Positions 5,225 through 43,047 of a stretch of 48,508 bases of DNA are shown here, one piece after another. Made by a program: the position numbers and the translations under genes. Origin of the DNA: a virus. Every line of letters starts with the position of its first letter. The stretch's first letter is position 1. The notes beneath the pieces were generated by a model. It ran no database searches. It was not told the DNA's origin and worked only from the letters and a program-made list of their open reading frames with translations. The stretch is taken from positions 1 to 48,508 of the IMG/VR virus record IMGVR_UViG_3300026078_000039; one strand, 5' to 3'.

Positions 5225-7013
5225 AGCAGCGGTAGCCGCGCTGAGGTTGGCCTTGGCGCGGCGGGGTTGCCAGCGCGGTCTGGAGCTTGGCGATCTGGTC
5301 CTGGAGGGAGGTCACAGCAGCGGTAGCCGCGCTGAGGTTGGCCTTGGCTTGTGTCACCGCTTGCGAGGCGATCGAAGCAGACGGGCTGGAGGTCGCGCCG
5401 ATCCCTGCCATTCCCATACCGGGCACCGGCGCAGCATGGGCGGCGCTCGATTCCGCTTGATAGGTCGCGTTGGCTCTGGTCAATTCTGCCCGGGCGAGCG
5501 CGGCGGATGCTTGGGCGTCCTTCAGCTTTGCGCGGGCATTATCAAGGTGCGATTGCGCTTCTTTCTCGGCCTCCTCACGCGCCTTGCCATGGGCGGTCGC
5601 GAGGTCGTCGATCGCGGCCTTCGTCTGCTTCGCTGATTCACCAGCGCCGTCCTGCAGTTCCTTGAATCGAGCGGTTGCCTGCGTCGCCTGATCGGTCACC
5701 GTGTACAGTTCGTACATGCCGGCCGTGATGGCGATCAGCGCGATGCCGACCGGGCCGCCAAAGGCGGCAAGAAGCGCCCGTCCAGCCGTGGTCGCGACCA
5801 GGGCGAGCGCCTCCATGGCGGTCGCGGCTCCGCCAGCGGCGGCTTCGATGGCGAACAGGATCGTCGTGACCGCCTTAGAGCTGGCCACAGCGCTGGCGAC
5901 GCCAGCCGCATATCGCGCGGTCATGACCCCGATGAGCGCTTCGAGCGCCACCGTCACGGCATGGGCATTGTTGGCCAGCGTCGTGAAGAGGGGGCCCAAT
6001 CCGCTCAACACGCTCCACAGTTCGGTCCCGGCCGTCTTGAGACCATCGAACATCTGATGGACCGCGCCGCCTTGTTCGTAGGACGTGACGAACGACTTGA
6101 TTAGGTCGTTCAGACCAGTCGTGAACTGAGCCATCGCGGGCGCGACGGCATCGGCAATCGTGGTCTGGAGGCCGAGCCATGCGATCTTGGACTCGTTGAC
6201 GGTTTCGGCGAGCGCCGCCTGCTTTTCAGCGGCATCCTTGTTGACGACACCAAAATCGGCGGCCTTTCCGAGAATCTCCTTCAGGCCCTCGGACCCGAGG
6301 TCAAGAATCGGGATAAGCTGCGCACCAGACCTGCCAAGCGCCGCCATCGCCAGTGCAGTCTTTGCTGGGCCGTCTTCCATGCCCTTGAAGCGATCGGCGA
6401 CCACAAACAAGCGCTGCATTTGTGTCAAGCCATCGTTGGCCGAGATGCCGAGCGCGCGGAGCGCCTTGCCGGTGGCGTTTGTGCTTCCGCTCGCGGTCGC
6501 TGCATTTTTGTCGAGGATTTGCATCCCGCGTGTGATGGTTTCGAGCGACACGCCGGTCGAAAGCGAAACCGCCTTGAGCTGCTGAACCTGCTCGACGCTC
6601 ATGCCGAAGGTGCGGGCAAGATGCTCGACTTTCTCGCCCGCCTCGGCCATGCCGTCGGCCCATTCCTTGACGCGCTCGACGGCAAACATCGAGACGTAGA
6701 CTTCGGCAAATTCGCGCGCGCGGGCTTGGAAAGTGCGGATCGATTCCGCGCCCTCGTGGATCTTCGCGATCATCCCGCTGAAGCCGGTGCTCGCCTCTTC
6801 GTGGAGTTCGCGGACCTGCGTTTTTGCACCGGCCGCGCTGGAAGCCAGTTCCTGGAACCCGGCCTTCATGGCGTCGGCCATCTGCGCCATCGAAGCGCTC
6901 AACTCGGCGAGCGCGGGTGCGATTGACGCGATATCGTTTTTCGTTTGTTGGACGCCGGGCTTAACCCCGGTCGCATCCGCGACGATCTTTACGCCGAGTT
7001 GATCGTCGGACAT
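5019..7013 (-). CDS. Tape measure protein, N-terminal fragment (frameshifted)
   Basis: Starts at the ATG at 7013 (MSDDQLGVKIVADATGVKPG). The tape measure sets tail length and is ejected ahead of the DNA. About 585 residues are authentic: a helical N-terminus, then a strongly hydrophobic section (AAGVASAVASS through FGGPVGIALIAITAGMYEL) expected to enter the membrane, then coiled coil. After the first-read copy of the 91-bp duplication the frame is lost and the last ~80 codons (Arg/Pro-rich) are out of frame. Without the duplication the full protein would be 1049 aa, a normal size. Confidence 0.85.
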   Translation of the reverse strand: MSDDQLGVKIVADATGVKPGVQQTKNDIASIAPALAELSASMAQMADAMKAGFQELASSAAGAKTQVRELHEEASTGFSGMIAKIHEGAESIRTFQARAREFAEVYVSMFAVERVKEWADGMAEAGEKVEHLARTFGMSVEQVQQLKAVSLSTGVSLETITRGMQILDKNAATASGSTNATGKALRALGISANDGLTQMQRLFVVADRFKGMEDGPAKTALAMAALGRSGAQLIPILDLGSEGLKEILGKAADFGVVNKDAAEKQAALAETVNESKIAWLGLQTTIADAVAPAMAQFTTGLNDLIKSFVTSYEQGGAVHQMFDGLKTAGTELWSVLSGLGPLFTTLANNAHAVTVALEALIGVMTARYAAGVASAVASSKAVTTILFAIEAAAGGAATAMEALALVATTAGRALLAAFGGPVGIALIAITAGMYELYTVTDQATQATARFKELQDGAGESAKQTKAAIDDLATAHGKAREEAEKEAQSHLDNARAKLKDAQASAALARAELTRANATYQAESSAAHAAPVPGMGMAGIGATSSPSASIASQAVTQAKANLSAATAAVTSLQDQIAKLQTALATPPRQGQPQRGYRCCDLPPGPDRQAPDRAGNPAAQGRPRRRPVEWRQRKVRDGQLGGRTRRAESGVRKSAGRGGHFSQVGRS
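5167..5348. repeat. Exact 91-bp tandem duplication inside the tape measure gene
   Basis: 5167-5257 and 5258-5348 are identical head-to-tail copies of 91 bp. Because 91 is not a multiple of three, the second copy shifts the tape measure frame. The total coding span minus 91 divides exactly by three (3150 nt), which is strong evidence that the ancestral gene had one copy. Confidence 0.95.
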
Positions 7014-7022
7014 GCGCGCCTC

Positions 7023-7343
7023 CTATTCAGGAGCGCCCAGCACGCGTTGCGTGATGAGCTTGGATGCCTCAATCGGGTCGCAGCCGGGCTGGACCGTCAT
7101 GAGGCTCGCCAGTTCGGCGATCGAAGGGCCGACGACGCCGGCTGTGGGGATTTCGCGCGAAGGCGCGTCAGGTTCGCGCGTCAGTTTCACGCCCCATGCG
7201 GACGCGAACAGCGAGACGGCGATGTGGGTCGGTGGCCCAAATTGGGCCCAGTGCGCGCGAATGCGCTCGACATCGTTCAAATCCCAGTCGTCTAGGATTT
7301 TTTGCTTGGATCCGCCCTCTATCAGGGCAGCGACAAGCTCCAT
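7023..7343 (-). CDS. Tail assembly chaperone, second (T-like) part
   Basis: 106 aa from the ATG at 7343, but the frame is open back through the end of the upstream chaperone gene. It lies between the first chaperone and the tape measure, the position of the lambda T region, and is most likely made as a -1 frameshift extension of the upstream protein (see the slippery site at 7384-7396). Contains WAQFGPPTHIAVSLF and a Pro/Glu-rich middle; ends 9 nt before the tape measure start. Confidence 0.6.
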   Translation of the reverse strand: MELVAALIEGGSKQKILDDWDLNDVERIRAHWAQFGPPTHIAVSLFASAWGVKLTREPDAPSREIPTAGVVGPSIAELASLMTVQPGCDPIEASKLITQRVLGAPE

Positions 7344-7383
7344 AACGATGGACCATAGCGTGTCGGCAAGGCTCCCTCCCGCA

Positions 7384-7396
7384 GCTACTTTTTGGG
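7384..7396 (-). promoter_or_regulatory. Probable -1 programmed ribosomal frameshift site
   Basis: On the minus strand the end of the first chaperone gene reads GCT CCC CCC AAA AAG TAG. The C6A5G run just before the stop allows a -1 slip (CCC re-pairs with CCC), and the -1 frame then reads GTA GCT GCG GGA without a stop into the downstream chaperone frame. Position and layout match the G/GT frameshift of lambda-like phages; the heptamer is not the textbook X-XXY-YYZ, so efficiency is uncertain. Confidence 0.55.
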
Positions 7397-7795
7397 GGGA
7401 GCCTTGTCTTCCCCCGGCCGCATACCGCTCTTGTTGAGCACGGAATTCACCGCGGCCATCAGCTCGGCCATCGCCTCGGGGGTCGCATCGACGTCATCGA
7501 TCAACGCTTTGGCGGTGACAGACGGGTCGAGCTTCACGATGCCGACGTGCAGGATGCGGACCGCGTCCGCGAGGTTCTGCATGTTTTCGGCCACCGTCGA
7601 AGCGGCAACCAGCTTCGCGATCTTCTCGGCAAGGGTTTCACCCTCGTCGCCAGGCATGATCGCGACGCCGGCCCGCAGCTCGAGCAGCGCCTGGCGCTCT
7701 TTTTGAGCGTCGATGAAGGGCGCGGCGTCGATCATGGCGCCTAGCTTGTAGGGCGCGAGTTCCCACTCGCGCCCACCGATGTTGATCGTCACCAT
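7385..7795 (-). CDS. Tail assembly chaperone, first (G-like) part
   Basis: 136 aa (MVTINIGGREWELAPYKLG...), mostly helical, placed between tail tube and tape measure genes. The start region resembles phage tail assembly chaperones that coat the tape measure during tail assembly and are absent from the finished virion. It ends in PPKK at a homopolymeric C6A5 run. Starts 5 nt after the tail tube stop. Confidence 0.75.
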   Translation of the reverse strand: MVTINIGGREWELAPYKLGAMIDAAPFIDAQKERQALLELRAGVAIMPGDEGETLAEKIAKLVAASTVAENMQNLADAVRILHVGIVKLDPSVTAKALIDDVDATPEAMAELMAAVNSVLNKSGMRPGEDKAPPKK

Positions 7796-7800
7796 CCAGA

Positions 7801-8562
7801 TTACTCCGACGTGCCCCAGGAGAGGACTCGGCCCGCGCTGTCGGCGAAAGCGCTGAATTCGAAGTCCGGCATCATGAAGTCGTCCAGCTTCGTGGCGAGC
7901 GTCATCTTGGTAGCGACGCAGCCGTAAAGGGTCAGCGTCAGGCTCTTGCCCTGGTAGGCGTTCGTGAGGTCGCAGCGGAACTGCGGCGCATTGCCCATCG
8001 CCACGTTGCTGACCAGAGAGGTCTTCGCCGTCGTCGACGTCGCAGTGTACTGGTAGCTGATGAAGACCGTCTTGCCGGTGTCGGCTGCGGCGAAGGTATA
8101 GACACCCGCCGAGACGCTATACTGGCCGGTCGTTGGGGCAGAGGCCACGCGGGTCATCGGCAGGCCGTTGCTGTCGCGCACGCCCAAATCCTGCGACCAG
8201 GTGCCCGAGCCGGGAACGGTCGGCGTGATCGTATACGGCGTGGTCGGGATGGCAGCGCCGATCGTGTCATACACGTCTGACAGTATGCCCGAGGACATGG
8301 TCTGACCGAAGAACAGAGAGTTGAAGATCGCGCCGTTAAGCTGAGCGAACGCAGCCTTGCCGGTGATCTTTGCCTTGCCACGGCCGATCGCGACCGGAAA
8401 CTGATTTTGACCGGTCAACTCTTTGACATCAGCCGAGATATCGACGCTGACATTCTGCAGCACGCCGAACAGGATCGGCGAAGGGTTCGCAATTGCGTTG
8501 CCGAAAGCGTCGGTCAGGGGCGTGCCCCAAACTGCTCCGGCGCCAAAGCCATACTGAGCCAT
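7801..8562 (-). CDS. Major tail (tube) protein
   Basis: 253 aa starting MAQYGFGAGAVWGTPLTDAFGN. Opening residues, beta-rich composition and position (after tail terminator, before chaperones) fit a siphovirus tail tube protein. The middle contains TPYTITPTVPGSGTWSQDLGV and a region VSAGVYTFAAADTGKTVFISYQYT, an all-beta stretch about residues 105-180 often seen as an extra domain in such proteins. Ribosome site AAAGGAAA precedes the ATG. Confidence 0.8.
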   Translation of the reverse strand: MAQYGFGAGAVWGTPLTDAFGNAIANPSPILFGVLQNVSVDISADVKELTGQNQFPVAIGRGKAKITGKAAFAQLNGAIFNSLFFGQTMSSGILSDVYDTIGAAIPTTPYTITPTVPGSGTWSQDLGVRDSNGLPMTRVASAPTTGQYSVSAGVYTFAAADTGKTVFISYQYTATSTTAKTSLVSNVAMGNAPQFRCDLTNAYQGKSLTLTLYGCVATKMTLATKLDDFMMPDFEFSAFADSAGRVLSWGTSE

Positions 8563-8611
8563 GGATCATTTCCTTTTACGAAGAAGCCGCGCGCGGGCGG
8601 ACGGGTGAATT

Positions 8612-9037
8612 TCAGGTGGTAAGGATGCGGATCGGGATGATGGCGACCTCGGTGTCGCCGAGCGTGCCTTCGCTGGTCTCGATCGTGCCTTCGATGCGGG
8701 CCCATTGGACGAGGCCGCCAAGGGTCTGCGGCGTCCCGATCGCGTTGGGCTCAAGCGTGGCCGTGATGGCGTCCAGGATAGGGTTTAGAACTTCGCCCGG
8801 CGATGCTGCGCCTTCGGTCGAGACGTAGAGATAGAGCGAGGCTTCCAGATACCATTTGGTCGGAAGCCCGTTTGCAGCTGGCTGTGCGACCGTCTGCCGC
8901 CCCTGCGCCTGAAACAGCGCCGGGCGCTGGCTGGCGGGCACGTCATTCCAGTGCAACAGCTTGCGCGACTTGGTCTGCAGGGCGGCCGGCGATGATACGA
9001 GCGCGAACAGCGCGGAAAAGATCGCTTCGCGGTTCAT
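8612..9037 (-). CDS. Tail terminator/completion protein
   Basis: 141 aa. Gene order (HK97 gp10-like, this protein, tail tube) and features such as QRPALFQAQG and KWYLEASLYLYVS identify the tail terminator family, which caps the tail tube and joins it to the head. Its ATG overlaps the stop of the preceding gp10-like gene (ATGA). Confidence 0.7.
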   Translation of the reverse strand: MNREAIFSALFALVSSPAALQTKSRKLLHWNDVPASQRPALFQAQGRQTVAQPAANGLPTKWYLEASLYLYVSTEGAASPGEVLNPILDAITATLEPNAIGTPQTLGGLVQWARIEGTIETSEGTLGDTEVAIIPIRILTT

Positions 9038-9546
9038 GCGAGGCTCCGGGCGATCGCGTTATGCATTTCGGTGTCGATCTCGCCGCTGGCCTGCAAATCA
9101 GCGAGTGCCGAGCGGAGGAACGACTTTTCGGGGACGTTCATGCGCATGTCGTGCGCGCGGACCGTCACCTGGCGCGGCGTGATCGAGCGGCCAAATGCCT
9201 GCTTGATCTCGCGCATATGCTCGCGAACCGAGACCGTGCCGTGGAAACCATATTCGTGGGCCCGGGCATAATCGATGACCTTATGGCCCTTGGACATCGC
9301 GTCTCCGGCGACCGAGGTCACACCAGCGATTTTGTCGCCCTCGTCCAGAACCGTGCCGTTGATCGAGCCGTAGAGCGCGCCAGTCTTGATCTTGAGCACG
9401 GGCCCATTGACCTTCGCGCGCGCCAGTCGGGCGCACATCAGGGCAAGGCGACCGAGCCCGACCTTCAACTCTTCGTGCAGGCGGGTCGGCAGCTTATCCA
9501 GCTTGGCGACGATCTCGGAATCGCCGACCAACCCGAGCTTGATCAT
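9034..9546 (-). CDS. HK97 gp10-like head-tail joining protein
   Basis: 170 aa from the ATG at 9546, which overlaps the previous stop (ATGA); longer versions of the frame are shadow. The layout (short N-terminal domain, KIKTGALYGSINGTV, then AHEYGFHGTVSVREH...FLRSAL) is that of the HK97 gp10 family. These proteins join head and tail or finish the tail in siphoviruses. Confidence 0.75.
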   Translation of the reverse strand: MIKLGLVGDSEIVAKLDKLPTRLHEELKVGLGRLALMCARLARAKVNGPVLKIKTGALYGSINGTVLDEGDKIAGVTSVAGDAMSKGHKVIDYARAHEYGFHGTVSVREHMREIKQAFGRSITPRQVTVRAHDMRMNVPEKSFLRSALADLQASGEIDTEMHNAIARSLA

Positions 9547-10713: not shown

Positions 10714-11574
10714 TTATGGGTTCCGATAAGTCTTGCGTTTGACGATCTGGAATAATGTCGGCGCGCTCAGTCCCCACTGATGCGCCAGATCACGGTAGGT
10801 TGCGCCGGCAGATTTATCGCGCCGCACCTGCTCTGCTTCCTCAAATGTGAGCGTTCGCTTGTCGCGTCTCGGCTGCCCGACCCGGGACAACGCCGCCTTT
10901 TTCCAACCCTCAAGCCTCTGTTCGTGCGTGAGGTTTGCTAATTTATCACGGGCAGAATCCATAAAGGCGGGAGACGCCTTGCAGGTCCGACTGATCTTTT
11001 CGCGAACTTCCTGTTTTATCGTGCTTCCGCGTCTAGCTAGGCCGTTTCGGCGCCCCACCTCGCGCATTCGCTCGCGGGCTTCGGGGTGCGCATCGAAGAA
11101 CTTACGCGTGTTTGCGGCTGCTACTGCCCGCTGTGCGTCCGATATTATCTTCCCGACCTGCGCATCTCCGATCGCTTTGCGATGTTCCGGTGACTTTGGG
11201 ACGCCCTTTCGAGCCGCAGATTGCTTTGCCCGTGTCTCAGCGGAGTGTCGCACGCCGAGGCAATTCCCTGCGGTCGGCGCTGAATTGAAACCCTTTGTCC
11301 GGCTGGCCGCGTTGAGGCGGTCAATCCAAAACTGCTCGCGCTCAATCAATCTCTCGGCCTCGACGGCCTCAATGACTGAGAACTCAAAAGAAGCTTCGCC
11401 GTGTTTATTCCATGAGCGCTGCATCGCCTTTGCGATGTGCACACCCGCCCTAAGTTGGCGGCGATGTTCCTGCAAACGGCGGCGCAGCTTGATCGAGGAT
11501 CCAACATAGACCCGACCGCTGATCAGATTGCGGATGCAGTATATGCCCGAAGGCGGTATGCTGGCTTCAGCCAT
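10714..11574 (-). CDS. GIY-YIG homing endonuclease
   Basis: 286 aa. Residues 9-95 are a GIY-YIG nuclease domain: GIYCIRN then VYVGSS, Arg in the helix (LRRRLQEHRR), and Glu in IEREQFWIDRL. Residues about 105-190 hold NUMOD3-type DNA-binding motifs (HSAETRAKQSAARKG, SPEHRKAIGDAQVG). The C-terminus (TYRDLAHQWGLSAPTLFQIVKRK) is a helix-turn-helix. This is the classic build of a free-standing phage homing enzyme that cuts near its own insertion site. It sits between the major capsid gene and the connector genes, in a segment with lower GC than its neighbours. Confidence 0.9.
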   Translation of the reverse strand: MAEASIPPSGIYCIRNLISGRVYVGSSIKLRRRLQEHRRQLRAGVHIAKAMQRSWNKHGEASFEFSVIEAVEAERLIEREQFWIDRLNAASRTKGFNSAPTAGNCLGVRHSAETRAKQSAARKGVPKSPEHRKAIGDAQVGKIISDAQRAVAAANTRKFFDAHPEARERMREVGRRNGLARRGSTIKQEVREKISRTCKASPAFMDSARDKLANLTHEQRLEGWKKAALSRVGQPRRDKRTLTFEEAEQVRRDKSAGATYRDLAHQWGLSAPTLFQIVKRKTYRNP

Positions 11575-11594
11575 TGTCGCACCTCATATGCGAT

Positions 11595-11648
11595 GGTGGT
11601 TAGAGGCTGGTTAGTGGTGGTACACTAATCAGCCTCGCCACCATCTCA
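11595..11648 (-). other. Long imperfect hairpin between capsid and homing endonuclease genes
   Basis: Outer arms GATGGTGG/CCACCATC and inner arms AGGCTG-TTAGTG/CACTAA-CAGCCT pair into one extended stem. No U-tract follows. It may be a processing or termination signal at the end of the capsid message, or a trace of the mobile element's insertion. A second small stem (CCAACT/AGTTGG) lies at 11665-11684 over the capsid stop codon. Confidence 0.6.
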
Positions 11649-11676
11649 TATTTAGGCGTAACTTCCAACTATATTA

Positions 11677-14919: not shown

Positions 14920-17103
14920 TCAGTTGTCGTCGTCTTCGGTGTCGGGCATTTCGTCGGTCAGGACGGGATCGACATTGCAGCGGCAGTTCGGGTGCAGCGG
15001 CGGATCGCCCTCGGGGAATCCTTCCCCGATCGCGACGATGGTGCCGTCCAGTTCCTGGCATTCGTCGCAGCAATCCGGAGCCGCGACCCATTGAAGGCCG
15101 GCGACAACGCCGGTCGCTTTCCAGCCCGCGATATTGCCCGCAGTTCGCGCCTTGGCGCTCTCGGTACGTGCTATCGTGGTCGCGCGCGAATTCGAGAAGG
15201 CGTCGCTGTCGCGGATGGCCTTGGCGAGCGCGTCGTTGCTCAGTCCTTCCTCGGCGCCCTGCGTGATGACCGAACGCAACATGTCGCGCGTGGCTGACTG
15301 GATCGACCAGCCGGGATTGTCCTCAAGCTCGCCATCATCGTTGATGCGGCGGCCGACGAGTTCCGCAGCGCGGTTCTGCGCATAGGCTGTCGCGTCGACT
15401 GTCAGCGCCTTCGTGACCTTGGGATCGAACAGGCCGACGTCCTTGGCAGCTTCCTTGCCGGCACCGACAGCCAGGCCGGTCAGGATCGGCTGCGTCGCCT
15501 TTACCAGCGGCGACCAATCCCAATCGACTTCGTCGAAAGCGTCGTCGATCCGGCTCTGATAGCCCTCGTCCATCGGCGGCGCGGCTTTTTCCAGACCGAG
15601 TGCGTCGCCCAATTGCTTGGCGATTTCTTCGCCCTTGGCCGACAAGAACGTCGAGATCACGCTGAGCAGCTTGCGCTCGAGCGCAGGAGCGGCCTTGGCC
15701 ATCGGGACGGTTGATGCGTCGGGCTTGGGCTCGGTCGGATCGGTCGCGGCGGGCACAGGCTCCGGCTCGGGCGGATTGACGATCGTATCGAGCAGTTGCG
15801 CGCCAGCAGCTGTGTAGATCAGCGGTTTGGAGCCGAGGCCATCAGGCAGCGGATCCTCGCCATTGCGGTCGCGCACCTCGTCGAGCGTCAGCGAGCCATT
15901 GCGGAGGCGCTTATCCTCGATCTGAGCCTTTTTCTCCGGATCGAACTCGCGATCCTCGACCCAGCTGAATTCCAGATCCGGGCGGCCGAAGTCTTCGGCA
16001 AGGAGCCGGTTCATCAGCCGGCGCACGAACTGCATGATGTTGGCGAGACCCGCGGCCTCCGCTGCGGCGTGGTCGGTCTGCGCGGATCCGTGGCCCAGAC
16101 CCTGCTGTTTCAGGAACGGCGTGGGACTCGTCGAGAAGACGAAGCAGATCAGGCGGATCAACCACTCGTCGAACGTGTCTTGCAGCGGCGGTGCGCCGAT
16201 CGGATTCCATGCGAACCCGGCGGGCAAGAACTGGGCAATGCGGCGGTTTTCGACGCCGGCCGTGACCAGGTTGTTCCACATCTGCTCGACCTGGCGGACC
16301 TGATCGGGCTGCACGCCATCGGGGGCGGAGAAGAAGCCGTCGGCCAGGTTGCCGTGCGTGAAAAAGGCCTTCTGGCCCTTCATGCGCTCGATAGCGGTCT
16401 CGACGGTCTCGACGATGAACTCGACGCGACTGTAGCCATAGACGTGGTCGGCGCGCGGGTTCTGCGGGTAGTAGAGCAGTTCCTTCGTCGTGTAATCGAC
16501 GGCCGGCAAGCCCTTGAGGACCTGCTGATATGCGGCATCCGGAAACATCGGACGGCGGCCCGATTGGTCAATCAGCGGCTTGATCGTCGCGCCGTCGAGG
16601 ATTTCGAACGAATAGGGCGCGCCCGCGATCGTCTTGCGGCGATAGATCGAGACGGCGTCCAGCACGAACTGCTGCTCGAGCATCATGCGCAGCCACTGCG
16701 GCCAATCGTGGATGCCGTCGGGCATCTCCAGCTTGGTCTGGATGTCGACGACCGACTGGTCGATCGATCCCGTCTTCTTACCGGGCTTTTGCTTCGGCTT
16801 GATCTGCCATTCCAGCGCCTCGGCCTTGTCCTTCTGGCCTTCCATGACCATGCGCAACAGGTTGCTGTTCTGCGCCAGGGCCTTGAGCTTCTTGAACCCG
16901 ACCGGCTCGGTGCCGCGCGGCGTGAAGTTGATGTTGAAGCCGACCGGATAATCGAACTGCCGGCCAGAAACCTCGGCCGGCGCCATCGGTTGCAGCGGGG
17001 TGAGCGGCCCGAACCAGTCCGGCTGCTTGCCCGTCGCGGCGTAGCGCACCATGGCGATCGTGCGCGCAAGGACGCCGGGATAGTCGCGAGAACCGTCGGC
17101 CAT
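14920..17103 (-). CDS. Portal protein fused to MuF-like minor head protein
   Basis: 727 aa. Residues ~1-450 are a portal protein (DUF935-like style: NLLRMVMEGQKDKAEALEWQIK, FVLDAVSIYRRKT, LIRLICFVFSTSPTPFLKQ), the dodecameric DNA channel. Residues ~540-715 are a MuF-type domain ending in TIARTESAKARTAGN...CDECQELDGT...PPLHPNCRCNV, with the hallmark HPNCRC motif. The two halves are joined by a Pro/Glu-rich linker near residue 460. They are usually separate neighbouring genes. The gene follows TerL by 19 nt. Confidence 0.85.
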   Translation of the reverse strand: MADGSRDYPGVLARTIAMVRYAATGKQPDWFGPLTPLQPMAPAEVSGRQFDYPVGFNINFTPRGTEPVGFKKLKALAQNSNLLRMVMEGQKDKAEALEWQIKPKQKPGKKTGSIDQSVVDIQTKLEMPDGIHDWPQWLRMMLEQQFVLDAVSIYRRKTIAGAPYSFEILDGATIKPLIDQSGRRPMFPDAAYQQVLKGLPAVDYTTKELLYYPQNPRADHVYGYSRVEFIVETVETAIERMKGQKAFFTHGNLADGFFSAPDGVQPDQVRQVEQMWNNLVTAGVENRRIAQFLPAGFAWNPIGAPPLQDTFDEWLIRLICFVFSTSPTPFLKQQGLGHGSAQTDHAAAEAAGLANIMQFVRRLMNRLLAEDFGRPDLEFSWVEDREFDPEKKAQIEDKRLRNGSLTLDEVRDRNGEDPLPDGLGSKPLIYTAAGAQLLDTIVNPPEPEPVPAATDPTEPKPDASTVPMAKAAPALERKLLSVISTFLSAKGEEIAKQLGDALGLEKAAPPMDEGYQSRIDDAFDEVDWDWSPLVKATQPILTGLAVGAGKEAAKDVGLFDPKVTKALTVDATAYAQNRAAELVGRRINDDGELEDNPGWSIQSATRDMLRSVITQGAEEGLSNDALAKAIRDSDAFSNSRATTIARTESAKARTAGNIAGWKATGVVAGLQWVAAPDCCDECQELDGTIVAIGEGFPEGDPPLHPNCRCNVDPVLTDEMPDTEDDDN

Positions 17104-17122: not shown

Positions 17123-18583
17123 TCAGGCCGCTTGCGGCGCTGTCTTTTCTGCCGCCCAGGCGAGCAGGCCTTCGAAGCCGGTGTTTGCCGGCGCGAACGC
17201 CATCACCACGGCGTCAGCGAGATTGTGCGACGGCACGCCGCGGGCCTTGAGCGACTTCTTGCCCTCGACCTTCATGCGACCGTTCACGCTCTCGCGCCGG
17301 GGTTGAGCCAGTTCCGCTTCGAGCTTGTCCCGCAAGGGAAGCCCGCTCGGGATGGCGATCAACAGGTCGCGATCGTGAGGCAGGCCATTGCGAGCCTGCC
17401 AGGTGTTGCGGAAGCGGTCGGCGAGAAGTCCCCAGCCTTGCGCTTTCAGATTGGCGAACATGTCGCCGTGCGTCTTGCCCGGCTGGTATTGGACATGCGG
17501 CAGGTTGGGAGATTCCGACGCGGTCCACCCTATGAACGAGATTGTCCGGCCGGTGGCGGCCTGCTTGTGAAGCCGCTTGAACTCGCCCGGCACCGATGCG
17601 CCGACGCCAATGTCGTCGATGTGGACGGTATCGATGCCCTCGCGGCAGACGCTCGCGTAGGCGGTTGCCGCCGCAGAATTCGGGTTGTCGTCTTGCCACT
17701 CTTCGAGGCCGGAAAGGACGCAGCCATAACGCCATGCCAGCGCGTTTGGATCGTTGGCCTTTGCCGCCGCGACATCGCCTTCGACGCCGCCGGACACGTC
17801 CATGCCCGCGATTTTGCCGCCCCCTAACGGGAAGTCGGGAATGTGCAGATGTGCGTCGAGCGCCGCCTGTATCCAGATCGGCTTGATGATCGAGAGGGCG
17901 TTGTCGGCGACTGGCTCGCCGCAATAGACGTGCCGGTAAAGCTCCGGATCCGCCAGCTGCATCAGCTCGGCGTCGTCACGTAGCTCTTTCGGGAACCGCG
18001 GGTTGTCGGTGTAATTGATCTTGCGGACGATGCAGTAGGGTCGCCCGTCCTTCTCAACCGGATATTTTGGGTTAGAGACGAAGCGCTGATAGGTCTCTTC
18101 GAGCGGGTTTTCCGGGTTGAACGATACCCAAATTTCCGACCCGTCTTTGCGCATCGTCGGGATCAGAGCGTTCCAGCTTTCGGCTGAAACCGGATTCGCC
18201 TCTTCCAGCCAGGCCGCGTCGAAGTTCGAGAAGCCCTTGAGCTTCTGCGTGTTGAGTTTCTTCGTGTTGGCCCGGATGCCCGAAAACTTGATGCAACCGC
18301 CGGAGGATGGGCAGTTGATCTCGGTCTTCAGGATGTCGAAATATTGCCCCAGGTCGCGGCGTTCTATCTCCGCAACGAACTCCTGATAGACGCTGTCGGC
18401 GATGCTCTCCATGATCTCGCGGAAGCAGACCAGCCGCCAACCGTGATAGAGAACGTTGCTCGTCAGAACCGTGCAGAAGGTGCGGGTCTTGGCGCTGCCG
18501 CGGCCGCCATAGGCCACTTTGAAGCGCGCCGGCTGAAGGTAATCCCGATAGGCCGGGAAAATGTCGAGGACCTCTTGGGTCAC
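17123..18583 (-). CDS. terL: Terminase large subunit
   Basis: 486 aa. Walker A GGRGSAKT at residues 26-33, Walker B/catalytic region DAAWLEEAN near 120-128, and a C-terminal RNaseH-like nuclease with GMDVSGG (about 261), VHIDDIGVG and a late NLADAVVMAF Asp. This is the PBSX/Terminase_3-like packaging ATPase-nuclease. It overlaps TerS by ATGA. The frame is intact at normal length. Confidence 0.92.
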   Translation of the reverse strand: MTQEVLDIFPAYRDYLQPARFKVAYGGRGSAKTRTFCTVLTSNVLYHGWRLVCFREIMESIADSVYQEFVAEIERRDLGQYFDILKTEINCPSSGGCIKFSGIRANTKKLNTQKLKGFSNFDAAWLEEANPVSAESWNALIPTMRKDGSEIWVSFNPENPLEETYQRFVSNPKYPVEKDGRPYCIVRKINYTDNPRFPKELRDDAELMQLADPELYRHVYCGEPVADNALSIIKPIWIQAALDAHLHIPDFPLGGGKIAGMDVSGGVEGDVAAAKANDPNALAWRYGCVLSGLEEWQDDNPNSAAATAYASVCREGIDTVHIDDIGVGASVPGEFKRLHKQAATGRTISFIGWTASESPNLPHVQYQPGKTHGDMFANLKAQGWGLLADRFRNTWQARNGLPHDRDLLIAIPSGLPLRDKLEAELAQPRRESVNGRMKVEGKKSLKARGVPSHNLADAVVMAFAPANTGFEGLLAWAAEKTAPQAA

Positions 18584-19077
18584 TTTTCGGTGATGTTGTA
18601 GACCGGCGCCTGCGGGGACATCGAACCGTCGCTGCTGCTGTGATCGATCTGAGAGCTATCGCGCCACTCGTCCTTGCGACGGTTCTTGAGCCAGAAGATC
18701 GCGGCCTGATCTGACGGCGGAACATGCTCGACGGTCGGCGTCCGTACAATGTGGCCCTTGTCGCAAAAGACCTTCTCGCTGTCGAAGCTGTAGCCGATCG
18801 CGCGGTGGTAAAGGCTGCGCACGACACGCTCGTCGGCGGCTTCCTTACCCAGGATCAGCGCCTCGTTGAATTCCGGGAAGTCATGCTTCCAGCGGTGGAT
18901 CGTGCGGACGCAGACCCCGAAGAAGTCGGCCAGATCGCGGTCGATCGCACCGAAGCGCTCGCACAGCATCTTGGCTTGCTCGACGAACTGCGGCTTGAAC
19001 GCCGTCGTCACCTTATGCCCCGGCAGAAACTGACCCGTCTCCGGGTCTTTGCCAGGCGTGGGCTCGGGCTGGTCCAT
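18580..19077 (-). CDS. terS: Terminase small subunit
   Basis: 165 aa. A helix-turn-helix (DLADFFGVCVRTIHRWKHDF) lies at about residues 50-69, followed by an oligomerisation-type region and WLKNRRKDEWRDSSQID, which is typical of small terminase subunits. It recognises the packaging site and guides TerL. The ATG at 19077 is preferred to a GTG one codon earlier; a GGGGGA ribosome site lies just upstream. Confidence 0.85.
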   Translation of the reverse strand: MDQPEPTPGKDPETGQFLPGHKVTTAFKPQFVEQAKMLCERFGAIDRDLADFFGVCVRTIHRWKHDFPEFNEALILGKEAADERVVRSLYHRAIGYSFDSEKVFCDKGHIVRTPTVEHVPPSDQAAIFWLKNRRKDEWRDSSQIDHSSSDGSMSPQAPVYNITEK

Positions 19078-19162
19078 CACGTCCCCCGAAAAGTCACCCG
19101 CCGCACGCTTCGACCCGATCAGCTACAGAATGTGCTTCGGTTGAGAGGTGAGCGGCGGCGGA

Positions 19163-20191
19163 TTAGAGTTCGCGGATCAGCTTGCGCCAGGAGACCACGG
19201 CCCGCGCGGCATTGCGCCGCAGCAGCGTCCGGTTGACCTCGTGCAGTCCGAAGCGCGATGCGAAACGAGCCCGGCCGATCGCGGCGATGATCTGGTCGAT
19301 CTCGCCACACGGCGCGGTGAACGGGCAGGCGACGAACTTGATTTCGTTCGACGTCACGACCGGCACGCCCTCGGAAATGGCGTCGGCGATCACGATGTTG
19401 AACGTCTCGGTGAAGCTGACCTGCAAGACCAGATCCATCCGCGAGCAGAGCGTCAGGAAGGCGTCGTGGCAGAGCCAGTCATGCTCGACCAGTTCGTGGA
19501 TCGAGCCGTCGAACAGCGAGCGCAGGTTCTTGAGGACCGGGCCGCCATTGCCCTCGGTCCGCGCCGAATTGATGTGGAAGCGCAGTTTCTTGCCCACGCG
19601 GTCGGCATAGGCGATTGCGGCATGCGCCTGGATCAGGTGGTTCTTGAGCGGGCGGACGGCGCCGAAGCAGCCGATGTCGAGCGTATCGCCGTTGCGATAG
19701 CGCCAGCGACCATGCGCCGCGACCGGGTAATAGTTCGGGCTGTAGCTGACCGGCGTGCCAAGCATGACGCGGGCGGCGTGGACCATGCGCGGGCTGTTGG
19801 CGCTGACCCGGACACCGCGCGCCCGATAGCCGTAGAGCCATTCGCACGCGATGCCCTCGTTCGCGATGAACGGCACTTCGCTATGCAGGCGGACAATCCA
19901 GCGGACAGTCGGATGCAGGCGCTTGAGGATGTCGAGCTTGTCCGGCACGACCCAAAGCGCTTCGAGGATCACATGCGTCGGGCGATGCTTCGTCAGTAGC
20001 CGGTCGATGTCGTTGTTGTCGTTGCATTCGGCCAGCTGGGCATCGAAGCCCTGGCCTTGCAGCATATCGACCACGAAGCGGACGGAATTCAGCAGGCCGG
20101 ACGAGCGCGAATAAGCGTAGGTGCCTTCATCGAACGTGGCTGCGAATTCCCGCTTCTTGAGCAGGAACAGGATGCGCGGGAGCGCTGACAT
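19163..20191 (-). CDS. GT-B type glycosyltransferase
   Basis: 342 aa. The N-terminal domain has RILFLLKKRE and the C-terminal donor domain has DTLDIGCFGAVRPLKNHLIQAHA and QVSFTETFNIVIADAISEGVPVV, the signature of GT4-like retaining enzymes with an E-x7-acidic pair. It could modify host surface polysaccharide (superinfection exclusion) or phage DNA/protein; nothing in the sequence decides. It sits alone between the tRNA cluster and TerS with 25-80 nt gaps on both sides. Phage-borne rather than a host remnant, as it is inside the phage genome. Confidence 0.75.
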   Translation of the reverse strand: MSALPRILFLLKKREFAATFDEGTYAYSRSSGLLNSVRFVVDMLQGQGFDAQLAECNDNNDIDRLLTKHRPTHVILEALWVVPDKLDILKRLHPTVRWIVRLHSEVPFIANEGIACEWLYGYRARGVRVSANSPRMVHAARVMLGTPVSYSPNYYPVAAHGRWRYRNGDTLDIGCFGAVRPLKNHLIQAHAAIAYADRVGKKLRFHINSARTEGNGGPVLKNLRSLFDGSIHELVEHDWLCHDAFLTLCSRMDLVLQVSFTETFNIVIADAISEGVPVVTSNEIKFVACPFTAPCGEIDQIIAAIGRARFASRFGLHEVNRTLLRRNAARAVVSWRKLIREL

Positions 20192-20219: not shown

Positions 20220-20294
20220 TGGAGCCGAGGGCGGGAATTGAACCCGCGACCTGCCGCTTACGAGGCGGCTGCTCTACCGCTGAGCTACCAGGGC
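20220..20294 (-). tRNA. tRNA-Thr (anticodon CGT)
   Basis: Cloverleaf with D-arm GCTC/GAGC, anticodon stem GCCGC/GCGGC with loop CTCGTAA, T-arm GCGGG-TTCAATT-CCCGC, and encoded CCA. The acceptor stem GCCCTGG/CCTCGGC has two central mismatches (C4:C69, T5:T68), so its activity is uncertain. Confidence 0.8.
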
Positions 20295-20299
20295 ATGAA

Positions 20300-20374
20300 T
20301 GGTTGCGACACCCGGATTTGAACCGGGAACCTTCTGGTTATGAGCCAGACGAGCTACCGTTGCTCTATGCCGCG
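20300..20374 (-). tRNA. tRNA-fMet (initiator type, anticodon CAT)
   Basis: Acceptor CGCGGCA/TGTCGCA pairs except position 1 (C1 x A72), and the D-stem has A11:U24; both are hallmarks of bacterial initiator tRNA. Anticodon loop CTCATAA, T-arm CCCGG-TTCAAAT-CCGGG, encoded CCA. Only two of the three initiator G-C pairs in the anticodon stem are kept (TCTGG/CCAGA). Confidence 0.85.
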
Positions 20375-20379
20375 GCGAT

Positions 20380-20454
20380 TGGTGCCTCACCGGGGATTCG
20401 AACCCCACTCTCCCGATTACAAATCGGGTGCATCACCACAATGCTTGGATCGGC
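20380..20454 (-). tRNA. tRNA-Thr-like (anticodon TGT), divergent
   Basis: Clear anticodon arm CCCGA-TTTGTAA-TCGGG and T-arm TGGGG-TTCGAAT-CCCCG with encoded CCA. The acceptor stem pairs at only positions 1-3 and 7, and the usual T8-A9 is absent. It may be degenerate or need editing. Confidence 0.65.
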
Positions 20455-20463
20455 GTGAATAAG

Positions 20464-20589
20464 GCCGACGCCCGTGGAGGCTTAATTCCCGGTCGTCGGC
20501 GGCTGGCCAATCCCCCCGGACGGCCAGCGTCTGGCGCTTGGGGTCGCCAGATACAACAACGCCCGGCCACCGATTGATCGGCTCCGGGC
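20464..20589 (-). ncRNA. Array of four strong hairpins beside the tRNA cluster
   Basis: The spacer between the GIY-YIG gene and the tRNAs contains four adjacent stems: GCCGACG (20464-20470/20494-20500), GCTGGCC (20502-20508/20522-20528), TCTGGCG (20530-20536/20545-20551) and GCCCGG (20561-20566/20584-20589). They are separated by 1, 1 and 9 nt. The last, first transcribed on the minus strand, is followed by GTTGTTGT and could be a terminator. Whether the rest is a structured RNA or a set of processing stems is open. Confidence 0.55.
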
Positions 20590-20635
20590 GCATTGAATAG
20601 ATCGTGGCATGGGATACCCAGAGAACTACCCCGTG

Positions 20636-21310
20636 TCAACTGATCCTGGGCAGGGGCAGCGTAATCATGCTGGTAGCCCTCGGCGATGGCGTCGAGCGCC
20701 AGTCGCGGTTGTTCAGCGCTCGATTTTCGTTGTCGGCATCACGCAGGGCATTCGCGGCCGCAACGGTCTTCCGGCGGTTGCGCATCCACATGGCGCTGTC
20801 GGCAATCTTGAGGTCAAGCTCCTTGGCGCAGGTCGCGATCAGCACGGCAGCTTGGAAGGTTGTCGCGCGCAACCATTCCCGTTCTTCGATCAGCCCATGC
20901 TCGCGCGCGACACGCAAACACATGTTCTCAAGCATCGAAGCGTGGCCCTTCGTCATCCAAAACACCGAGCGCAGCTTGAGTTCGCTGCCGGGCTCGAGGA
21001 TGTCGGGCATCTTTTCCCGCTTCAGGTTCGAGATGCGAGTGTCGATCCGATGACTGTGCCCGATCTTGCGGACTGGCGAATTGTCGGCGCCTATCACGTA
21101 GACGCAGGATTCGATCGCCTGACCGCGTTCCTGCACGATCGCGTAATTCAGGCGCTTGGCCGTCGCGATGTCGGTGACATTCGAGCATCGCTTGGCGATT
21201 TCGACTGGATCGAGGTCTCGAACAGGGATGCATTCGAGCAAAAGTTCCGTCTCACGCTCGTCGATGCCGACGCGCACTGTGCGCGCCACTGCAGCTTCAT
21301 GTCCGCTCAC
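20636..21310 (-). CDS. GIY-YIG/T5orf172-like nuclease-family protein
   Basis: 224 aa from a GTG at 21310 that overlaps the previous stop (GTGA). The middle reads CVYVIGADNSPVRKIGHS...RISNLKR, then a Glu in HASMLENMCLRVAREHG: the order and spacing of the GIY-YIG-like MUG113/T5orf172 group. A helical C-terminus follows. The ~100 residues in front of the domain are not recognised. It ends the early leftward gene run, just before the hairpin array. Confidence 0.6.
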   Translation of the reverse strand: MSGHEAAVARTVRVGIDERETELLLECIPVRDLDPVEIAKRCSNVTDIATAKRLNYAIVQERGQAIESCVYVIGADNSPVRKIGHSHRIDTRISNLKREKMPDILEPGSELKLRSVFWMTKGHASMLENMCLRVAREHGLIEEREWLRATTFQAAVLIATCAKELDLKIADSAMWMRNRRKTVAAANALRDADNENRALNNRDWRSTPSPRATSMITLPLPRIS

Positions 21311-24380: not shown

Positions 24381-24724
24381 GACCCCACCTGCACATTCCC
24401 ACAGATCAGGCCCCGGGCGCGCGTGGGTCGCGTGGGTGACGGATGGGGTGTGTTTCCACCTCCTCGCGCCCGCACGTATTCTTTCTGCTGGGCCCCTTTT
24501 TTACTCTTTCTATCTATATAGGATAAAAGGTGGAAACATTGGACGTAAGTGATTGATCCTGTTTCCGTTTCCACCTCTGTTTCCACCTCCATTTTAGGTG
24601 GAAACAAGGTGGAAACACGAGAGGTGGAAACACGATTTCGACGATTTTCGGCTCGGTGTTGCCACCTGGAGGTGGAAACATTTGAGGTGGAAACGGGGTG
24701 GAAACAGGCAGGTGGAAACATCAT
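24377..24724 (-). CDS. Translationally coupled frame carrying the iterons
   Basis: 115 codons without a stop from the ATG at 24724. This ATG overlaps the VirE-helicase stop (ATGA), has GGAGG 7 nt upstream, and the frame's own stop overlaps the next start (GTGA): the same coupling used by its neighbours. The peptide repeats VSTS and VETE units because the 10-bp iterons are read in both orientations. It may be a real protein, a former initiator-like gene remodelled into an origin, or just an open spacer. Lambda O, with its origin inside the gene, is a known parallel. Confidence 0.45.
   Translation of the reverse strand: MMFPPACFHPVSTSNVSTSRWQHRAENRRNRVSTSRVSTLFPPKMEVETEVETETGSITYVQCFHLLSYIDRKSKKGAQQKEYVRARGGGNTPHPSPTRPTRARGLICGNVQVGS
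24451..24720. repeat. Twelve GGTGGAAACA iterons, probable replication origin
   Basis: Nine exact and three 9/10 copies. Read as GGTGGAAACA at 24529, 24597, 24608, 24623, 24671, 24686 (one mismatch), 24697 and 24711; in the opposite orientation at 24451, 24566 (one mismatch), 24578 and 24657 (one mismatch). Successive starts in the dense parts are 11, 15, 15, 11 and 14 bp apart, roughly one helical turn. An AT-rich stretch (TTTTTTACTCTTTCTATCTATATAGG) lies at 24499-24522. Iterons, an AT-rich unwinding segment and an adjacent helicase gene together point to an origin. Confidence 0.75.
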
Positions 24725-42075: not shown

Positions 42076-43047
42076 ATGGCCGAACACAGCGCGATTGAAT
42101 GGACCGATGCGACGGTCAATTTCTGGTGGGGCTGTACGAAGGTCGGGCCCGGCTGCGACGGTTGCTATGCCGAGACGTGGGCAAAGCGCACGGGCGGCAA
42201 TCTCTGGGGCGTTGGCGTGGCGCGTCGGAAGATCAAGAGCGCGGCCGCGCTGATCCATCGCCTCGACAACGATTATTCCTGGTGGGCTGCCGATCATCAT
42301 ATCGGTCAGATCAACGCCACGCCCGCGCGCCGCGTATTCATCCAGTCGATGTCGGACCTGTTCGACACCGAAGTGCCGCTCGAATGGTTCGACGAAGCAT
42401 GGGGCCGGATCGAGGTCTGCAATCGGCTCGCGATCCAGATCGTCACGAAGCGGGTCTCCGTTGTCGAGAAACGGCTGGCCGCGATCGGCAAAGACGCGTG
42501 GCCAAAGCACGCGGGCCTGATGATCTCTGTCGTCAATCAGGAGGAGGCCGACCGCGACATTCCGCGGCTAATCGCGCTCAAGGCGAAACTGGGAATCCCC
42601 TGGATAGGGCTTTCCATGGAGCCGCTACTCGGGGCAGTCATCCTGCGCGAGGAATGGCTCGCCGCGCTCGATTGGGTGATTGTCGGCGGGGAAAGCGGAA
42701 AAGACGCTCGCCCGATGAACCCGAATTGGGTGCGCGCTCTGCTCGACCAGTGCCAGGTCGCGGGGGTAGCGTTCCTGTTCAAGCAATGGGGTGAGTGGGC
42801 GCCAATGGACGCGGCCGGGATTGCGGCTGACCGCCCGATCACCGACCGCTGGGGCAATGTTCCCGACTGGATGAACCGCTATGTCATTGCCGAAGGTGAC
42901 GCATGGGCTCGACGCGTGCGCGGCCACAGCTTTACGCGACACTCGACGGATCTCGTCTATCGTGTCGGCAAGAAAACGGCGGGCCGTATGCTCGACGGCG
43001 CCGAACATAACGGTCTGCCGAACTTCCTGATCGGCCTCGCCGCATGA
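42076..43047 (+). CDS. DUF5131 (phage Gp37/Gp68-like) protein
   Basis: 323 aa. N-terminal GCTKVGPGCDGCYAE (three Cys), MSDLFD, VVNQEEADRDIPRL, and GLSMEPLLG...WVIVGGESGKDARPM are the hallmarks of DUF5131/Gp37-Gp68 proteins, radical-SAM-like in sequence and often carried by phages. Exact reaction unknown. It follows the integrase and a small gene with only 2 nt gap. Confidence 0.85.
   Translation: MAEHSAIEWTDATVNFWWGCTKVGPGCDGCYAETWAKRTGGNLWGVGVARRKIKSAAALIHRLDNDYSWWAADHHIGQINATPARRVFIQSMSDLFDTEVPLEWFDEAWGRIEVCNRLAIQIVTKRVSVVEKRLAAIGKDAWPKHAGLMISVVNQEEADRDIPRLIALKAKLGIPWIGLSMEPLLGAVILREEWLAALDWVIVGGESGKDARPMNPNWVRALLDQCQVAGVAFLFKQWGEWAPMDAAGIAADRPITDRWGNVPDWMNRYVIAEGDAWARRVRGHSFTRHSTDLVYRVGKKTAGRMLDGAEHNGLPNFLIGLAA

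Follow-up and report, generated by a model that had tools for sequence, protein, structure and literature searches.

The DNA analyzed here (hereafter the window) comprises the 48,508 bases of a temperate phage record, with an integrase gene among its contents. Its minus-strand replication genes (primase/helicases) run down to a VapE-type primase/helicase gene, and are followed on the same strand by an array of four hairpins (H1-H4) and then by terminase and portal genes (Table 1). The first protein gene of this unit, common to all three phages compared below, encodes a glycosyltransferase-like protein, and no minus-strand terminator-like site was found between this gene and the terminase genes. 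Elsewhere in the window, TGTTTCCACCT recurs eight times without mismatch, on either strand, within ~270 nt at positions 24451-24720 beside the primase gene (0.03 expected by chance), a cluster that looks like replication-origin iterons or an operator cluster. Positions 42076-43047 on the plus strand encode a complete DUF5131 protein.

Table 1. Features of the minus-strand unit, from high to low coordinates in the window.
Feature	Position	Strand	Description	Basis
Promoter-like site	20611-20639	minus	TTGACA (20639-20634), 17-nt spacer starting CGGGGTA, TATCCC (20616-20611)	
H1 hairpin	20561-20589	minus	6-bp outer and 5-bp inner stem	fold
H2 hairpin	20530-20551	minus	7-bp stem; opens the conserved domain H2-H4	fold
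H3 hairpin	20502-20528	minus	7-8 bp plus 3-bp inner helix; loop UCCGGGGGGAU at 20510-20520	fold
H4 hairpin	20464-20500	minus	7-bp plus 3-bp inner stem; loop segment UUAAGCCUCCACGGGC at 20470-20485	fold
tRNA-Thr(CGT), tRNA-Met(CAT), defective tRNA-like copy	20220-20445	minus	cargo specific to the window phage	ARAGORN, Rfam
Glycosyltransferase-like gene	19163-20191	minus		weak, below-cut-off Pfam Glyco_trans_1_4 match
Terminase small subunit gene	18580-19080	minus	start of packaging genes	phrog_309, 1.6e-41
Terminase large subunit gene	17123-18583	minus		tblastn against annotated large terminase subunits of phages
Portal/head protein gene	14920-17103	minus		phrog_2662, 1.7e-95; Pfam Phage_portal

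A first-pass annotation of the window had described four GC-rich hairpins at 20464-20589, and folding of the minus strand bears this out, with four disjoint hairpins. The accompanying statement that the stems have almost no spacers holds for H2-H4, which are separated by 1 nt each, but not for H1 and H2, which lie 9 nt apart. The minimum free energy of the array is -71 kcal/mol on the plus strand and -74 kcal/mol on the minus strand, about 4 standard deviations below dinucleotide shuffles on either strand, and none of 200 such shuffles matches it. Four disjoint perfect stems of at least 6 bp within 126 nt occur only here in the window, and a stretch of this kind also appeared in one of six shuffled genomes. 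The hairpin signal of the single sequence is out of the ordinary but not decisive, and it is the comparative evidence that settles the reality of the array. The 126 nt had also been described as noncoding, and we agree: the single open frame is disrupted by an indel, and the frames that cross the array in relatives have no start codon. We accordingly ruled out a protein-coding reading, since a 1-nt indel in H4 between otherwise near-identical sequences breaks the frame. In a separate part of the window, a near-perfect interrupted palindrome at 11572-11650, just before a gene start, is among the most stable GC-corrected folds.

Relatives were found by searching IMG/VR with the downstream glycosyltransferase gene. 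The matches comprise an identical contig (L001/L042) and two further phages, L043 and L044, whose glycosyltransferases are 98% and 74% identical to that of the window, and in both phages the array is present upstream of this gene. The visible family consists of three sequences, two of them close, and in effect represents two lineages. We tested the structure on a 214-column alignment of the three sequences (A1); a core-only alignment (A2) placed H4 wrongly and was excluded from the test. The four hairpins comprise 33 stem pairs, and each of the three sequences has a standard pair at every one of them. Two pairs of H3 and four of H4, six in total, have both partners changed; in addition, H3 shows one G-C to G-U change and H4 one C-G to U-G change. 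The six outer pairs of H1 are kept in all three sequences, while H2 combines a variable loop with an unvaried stem that is uninformative on covariation. When the 3' partner was slid by 1-3 columns as a control, pairing fell to 26-46% of cells, and one of 500 shuffles, which ignore relatedness, reached the observed pairing values.

Read on the minus strand, the one-sided changes in the modeled helices are of the G-C/G-U type; read on the plus strand, the same changes would produce A-C mismatches, which favors a minus-strand RNA. Since every stem pair is kept and six changes are compensatory, the alignment supports a structured RNA whose structure appears to be maintained by compensatory changes across two independent lineages. 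The first-pass annotation had proposed a structured RNA and pointed to covariation as the check; the compensatory changes found here speak for that proposal. While the stems of H3 and H4 change, the H3 loop UCCGGGGGGAU and the H4 loop segment UUAAGCCUCCACGGGC are invariant, a combination typical of structured RNAs whose loops are recognized and not of a dimer-binding DNA site.

The same pattern bears on two further explanations. One is a DNA element built from inverted repeats, either a packaging site (pac/cos) or a protein-binding site, close to the gene for the small terminase subunit; the array is indeed near the terminase genes. We nevertheless regard this as very unlikely: a dimer-binding site would conserve sequence, whereas here the stems change pairwise, including through G-U intermediates, and L044 retains the array despite an unrelated terminase. 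In L044, positions 6452-9197 encode a terminase (Terminase_6C) and a portal protein of unrelated type, in the same place behind the shared leader and glycosyltransferase, a difference that is a module swap; the order of array, glycosyltransferase, and terminase plus portal is kept in all three phages. Lowest of all in our ranking is the idea that the array reflects chance, or simple tandem terminators that close the early operon and have no further role. The terminator-like character of H1 and the four stems in one of six shuffled genomes would fit this idea, but H2-H4 have no U-tracts, and neither the covariation nor the invariant loops would be expected from it.

The first-pass annotation placed the array next to a tRNA cluster. 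In the window, tRNA genes do lie beside it, at 20220-20294 and 20300-20374, together with a third, Thr(TGT)-type tRNA-like element at 20392-20445, within 20375-20460 (minus strand), that scores 35 bits with Rfam and is not listed by ARAGORN; its acceptor stem is mismatched (GCCGATC versus GTGAGGC), so that it looks defective. The implied tie to the tRNAs does not hold, however: there are no tRNA genes at the array locus in L043 or L044, which have the array nonetheless, so that the link appears accidental and a tRNA-linked stable RNA can be ruled out. The stretch after H4 varies in its cargo: the window has the tRNAs there, L043 has a 62-aa ORF, and L044 has nothing. Among more distant glycosyltransferase relatives, the genes in L082 and L084 (upstream of 5001) also adjoin tRNA genes, and the neighboring tRNA in L084 carries a CTA (amber) anticodon.

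Homology among the three contigs begins at the -35-like box, and both this box and the adjoining CGGGGTA are conserved, while the genes upstream of the homologous block differ among the three phages. From these boxes we infer a promoter at 20639-20611 with a transcription start near 20604; the -10 box TATCCC is poor, and a promoter consensus scan did not return the site. H1 lies about 15-45 nt past the expected start. Its tail reads GUUGUUGUAU in the window, UUUUUU in L043 and AUUUUC in L044 (TTTTTT and ATTTTC as DNA). The U-tract in the relatives suggests that H1 is an attenuating terminator; the U-tract is poor in the window, where a terminator scan did not list H1, and strong in L043 only. 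The suggestion in the first-pass annotation of a terminator plus an RNA fits this arrangement well, as H1 is terminator-like in L043 and partly so in L044 and is followed by H2-H4, with the poor U-tract of the window as the part that fits less well.

Upstream of H2, L043 is closer to L044, whereas within H2-H4 it is closer to the window, so that promoter-H1 and H2-H4 look like separable parts. A model search of whole phage records gave only weak likeness to the promoter-H1 part, in L007, L053 and L054. In these three, the terminase small-subunit gene is directly preceded by a comparable promoter and a hairpin of the form GCCCGG...CGGGC-TTTTTT, but H2-H4 are not recognizable.

That a late-operon leader RNA is part of the explanation for this locus seems to us highly probable. 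The fuller reading, to which we lean with some reserve, is that 20639-20464 on the minus strand controls the late operon, with its packaging and structural genes, and supplies its structured 5' leader, with H1 as an attenuator and H2-H4 as an RNA domain that acts in cis. Transcription would start on the minus strand near 20604 from the promoter-like site, and H1 would then attenuate it as a terminator, like lambda tR'. Transcripts that pass H1 would carry the conserved, covariation-supported 88-nt domain of three hairpins, H2-H4. This domain would presumably act in cis on the late transcript itself. It lies after H1, which rules out an effect on H1 in the transcript that carries it.

Our first choice for this action, a tentative one that amounts to a guess, is put-like antitermination, in which nascent H2-H4 would let RNA polymerase traverse the late operon while resisting pauses and terminators. 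We consider it unlikely that the array goes further and represents a new kind of antiterminator that needs no protein, with three hairpins of the nascent RNA at the start of the late operon modifying RNA polymerase in cis; such an element would be analogous but unrelated to HK022 put and would serve late rather than early promoters. Pfam and PHROGs recognized no Q-type antiterminator among the early-region ORFs scanned, and one that they do not recognize is possible.

As a second choice, H2-H4 may protect or process the 5' end of the transcript, either as a stabilizer of the late transcript that blocks ribonucleases attacking from the 5' end or as a cleavage mark that frees downstream tRNAs or mRNA. 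We hold this to be almost as likely as a put-like effect, and thus similarly tentative. It would need no extra phage protein, and in L043 and L044 only 17-26 nt separate the end of the highly stable stacked hairpins from the first gene. Simple stabilizers do not need invariant loops, yet the loops of H3 and H4 are invariant. The same invariant loops, GGGGGGAU and GCCUCCAC, would suit a trans-acting small RNA derived from the leader, in which the H4 loop, through its CCUCC, pairs with ribosome-binding sites, or an H3-H4 kissing contact gates such pairing. For the H3-H4 loop duplex, the predicted energy is -16.6 kcal/mol (window) and -14.3 kcal/mol (L044), but the complementarity is insignificant against shuffled loops (fractions 0.04 and 0.15, respectively), so that a kissing contact is possible and not significant. 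Moreover, no terminator follows H4 and Rfam gave no match to a small RNA, and we judge a trans-acting role improbable.

In keeping with the earlier remark that no named family of this shape was known, a check against Rfam (4227 models) gave only tRNA matches in the window, and the array has no match above the gathering threshold (best sub-threshold matches, E 2-9). A blastn search against known phages and plasmids gave no real match to the array, pattern scans with the H3 and H4 loops in viral and genome collections returned only chance or coding matches, and a viral scan with an upstream ORF returned no new contigs. The array is absent from the distant glycosyltransferase relatives L081-L086, and the contig with the closest terminase (L036) stops short of the array region. 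Overall, we regard the array as a new and small family of leader RNAs in phages. Known phage RNA elements with an effect on the elongating polymerase are few, and beyond the lambdoid phages the control of late genes has received little description. With its compact and conserved RNA domain right after a late-type promoter and attenuator, the array makes a direct, easily built test case for RNA-based antitermination or leader stabilization in other temperate phages.

Several known RNAs share single traits with the array. The T4 stable RNAs C and D, GOLLD and ROOL are non-coding RNAs encoded beside phage tRNA genes, as is the array in the window; unlike them, the array persists without tRNAs in L043 and L044 and has no Rfam match. 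The alphaproteobacterial cuckoo/CcsR RNAs are tandem stem-loops with CCUCC loops from a host stress locus. The array is likewise a tandem of stem-loops with CCUCC in the H4 loop, but it lacks the CCUCCUCCC loop repeat, having CCUCC in H4 only, and it lies in a phage late leader.

The nearest models for how the array may work are HK022 put RNA and the lambdoid pR'-tR' region. In late control of phages such as lambda and 21, a terminator before the late genes is the target of Q-dependent antitermination (PMC6606751). The unit described here likewise lies between the replication/regulatory genes and the late operon of a temperate phage; its promoter-like site is followed shortly by H1, a candidate intrinsic terminator. 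The array differs in three respects: no Q-family gene was recognized in the scanned early-region ORFs of the window, its unit leads to packaging genes whereas the lambda late operon begins with lysis genes, and the three-hairpin domain after the terminator is an extra. We do not claim membership of the Q system because a Q-type gene was not recognized among the ORFs scanned, nor do we claim membership of put. Put RNA has two hairpins where the array domain has three, and it binds the zinc-binding domain of the RNA polymerase beta' subunit and suppresses termination in cis, a property that is conjectural for the array. In HK022, the nascent transcripts of putL and putR fold into neighboring stem-loops just past a phage promoter (PMC9378689). 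They span ~70 nt with two hairpins and follow early promoters, whereas the domain described here spans 88 nt with three conserved hairpins and is separated from its late-type promoter by the putative terminator H1. The likeness is one of layout: in both, adjacent stem-loops lie downstream of a phage promoter or, in the array, a promoter-like site.
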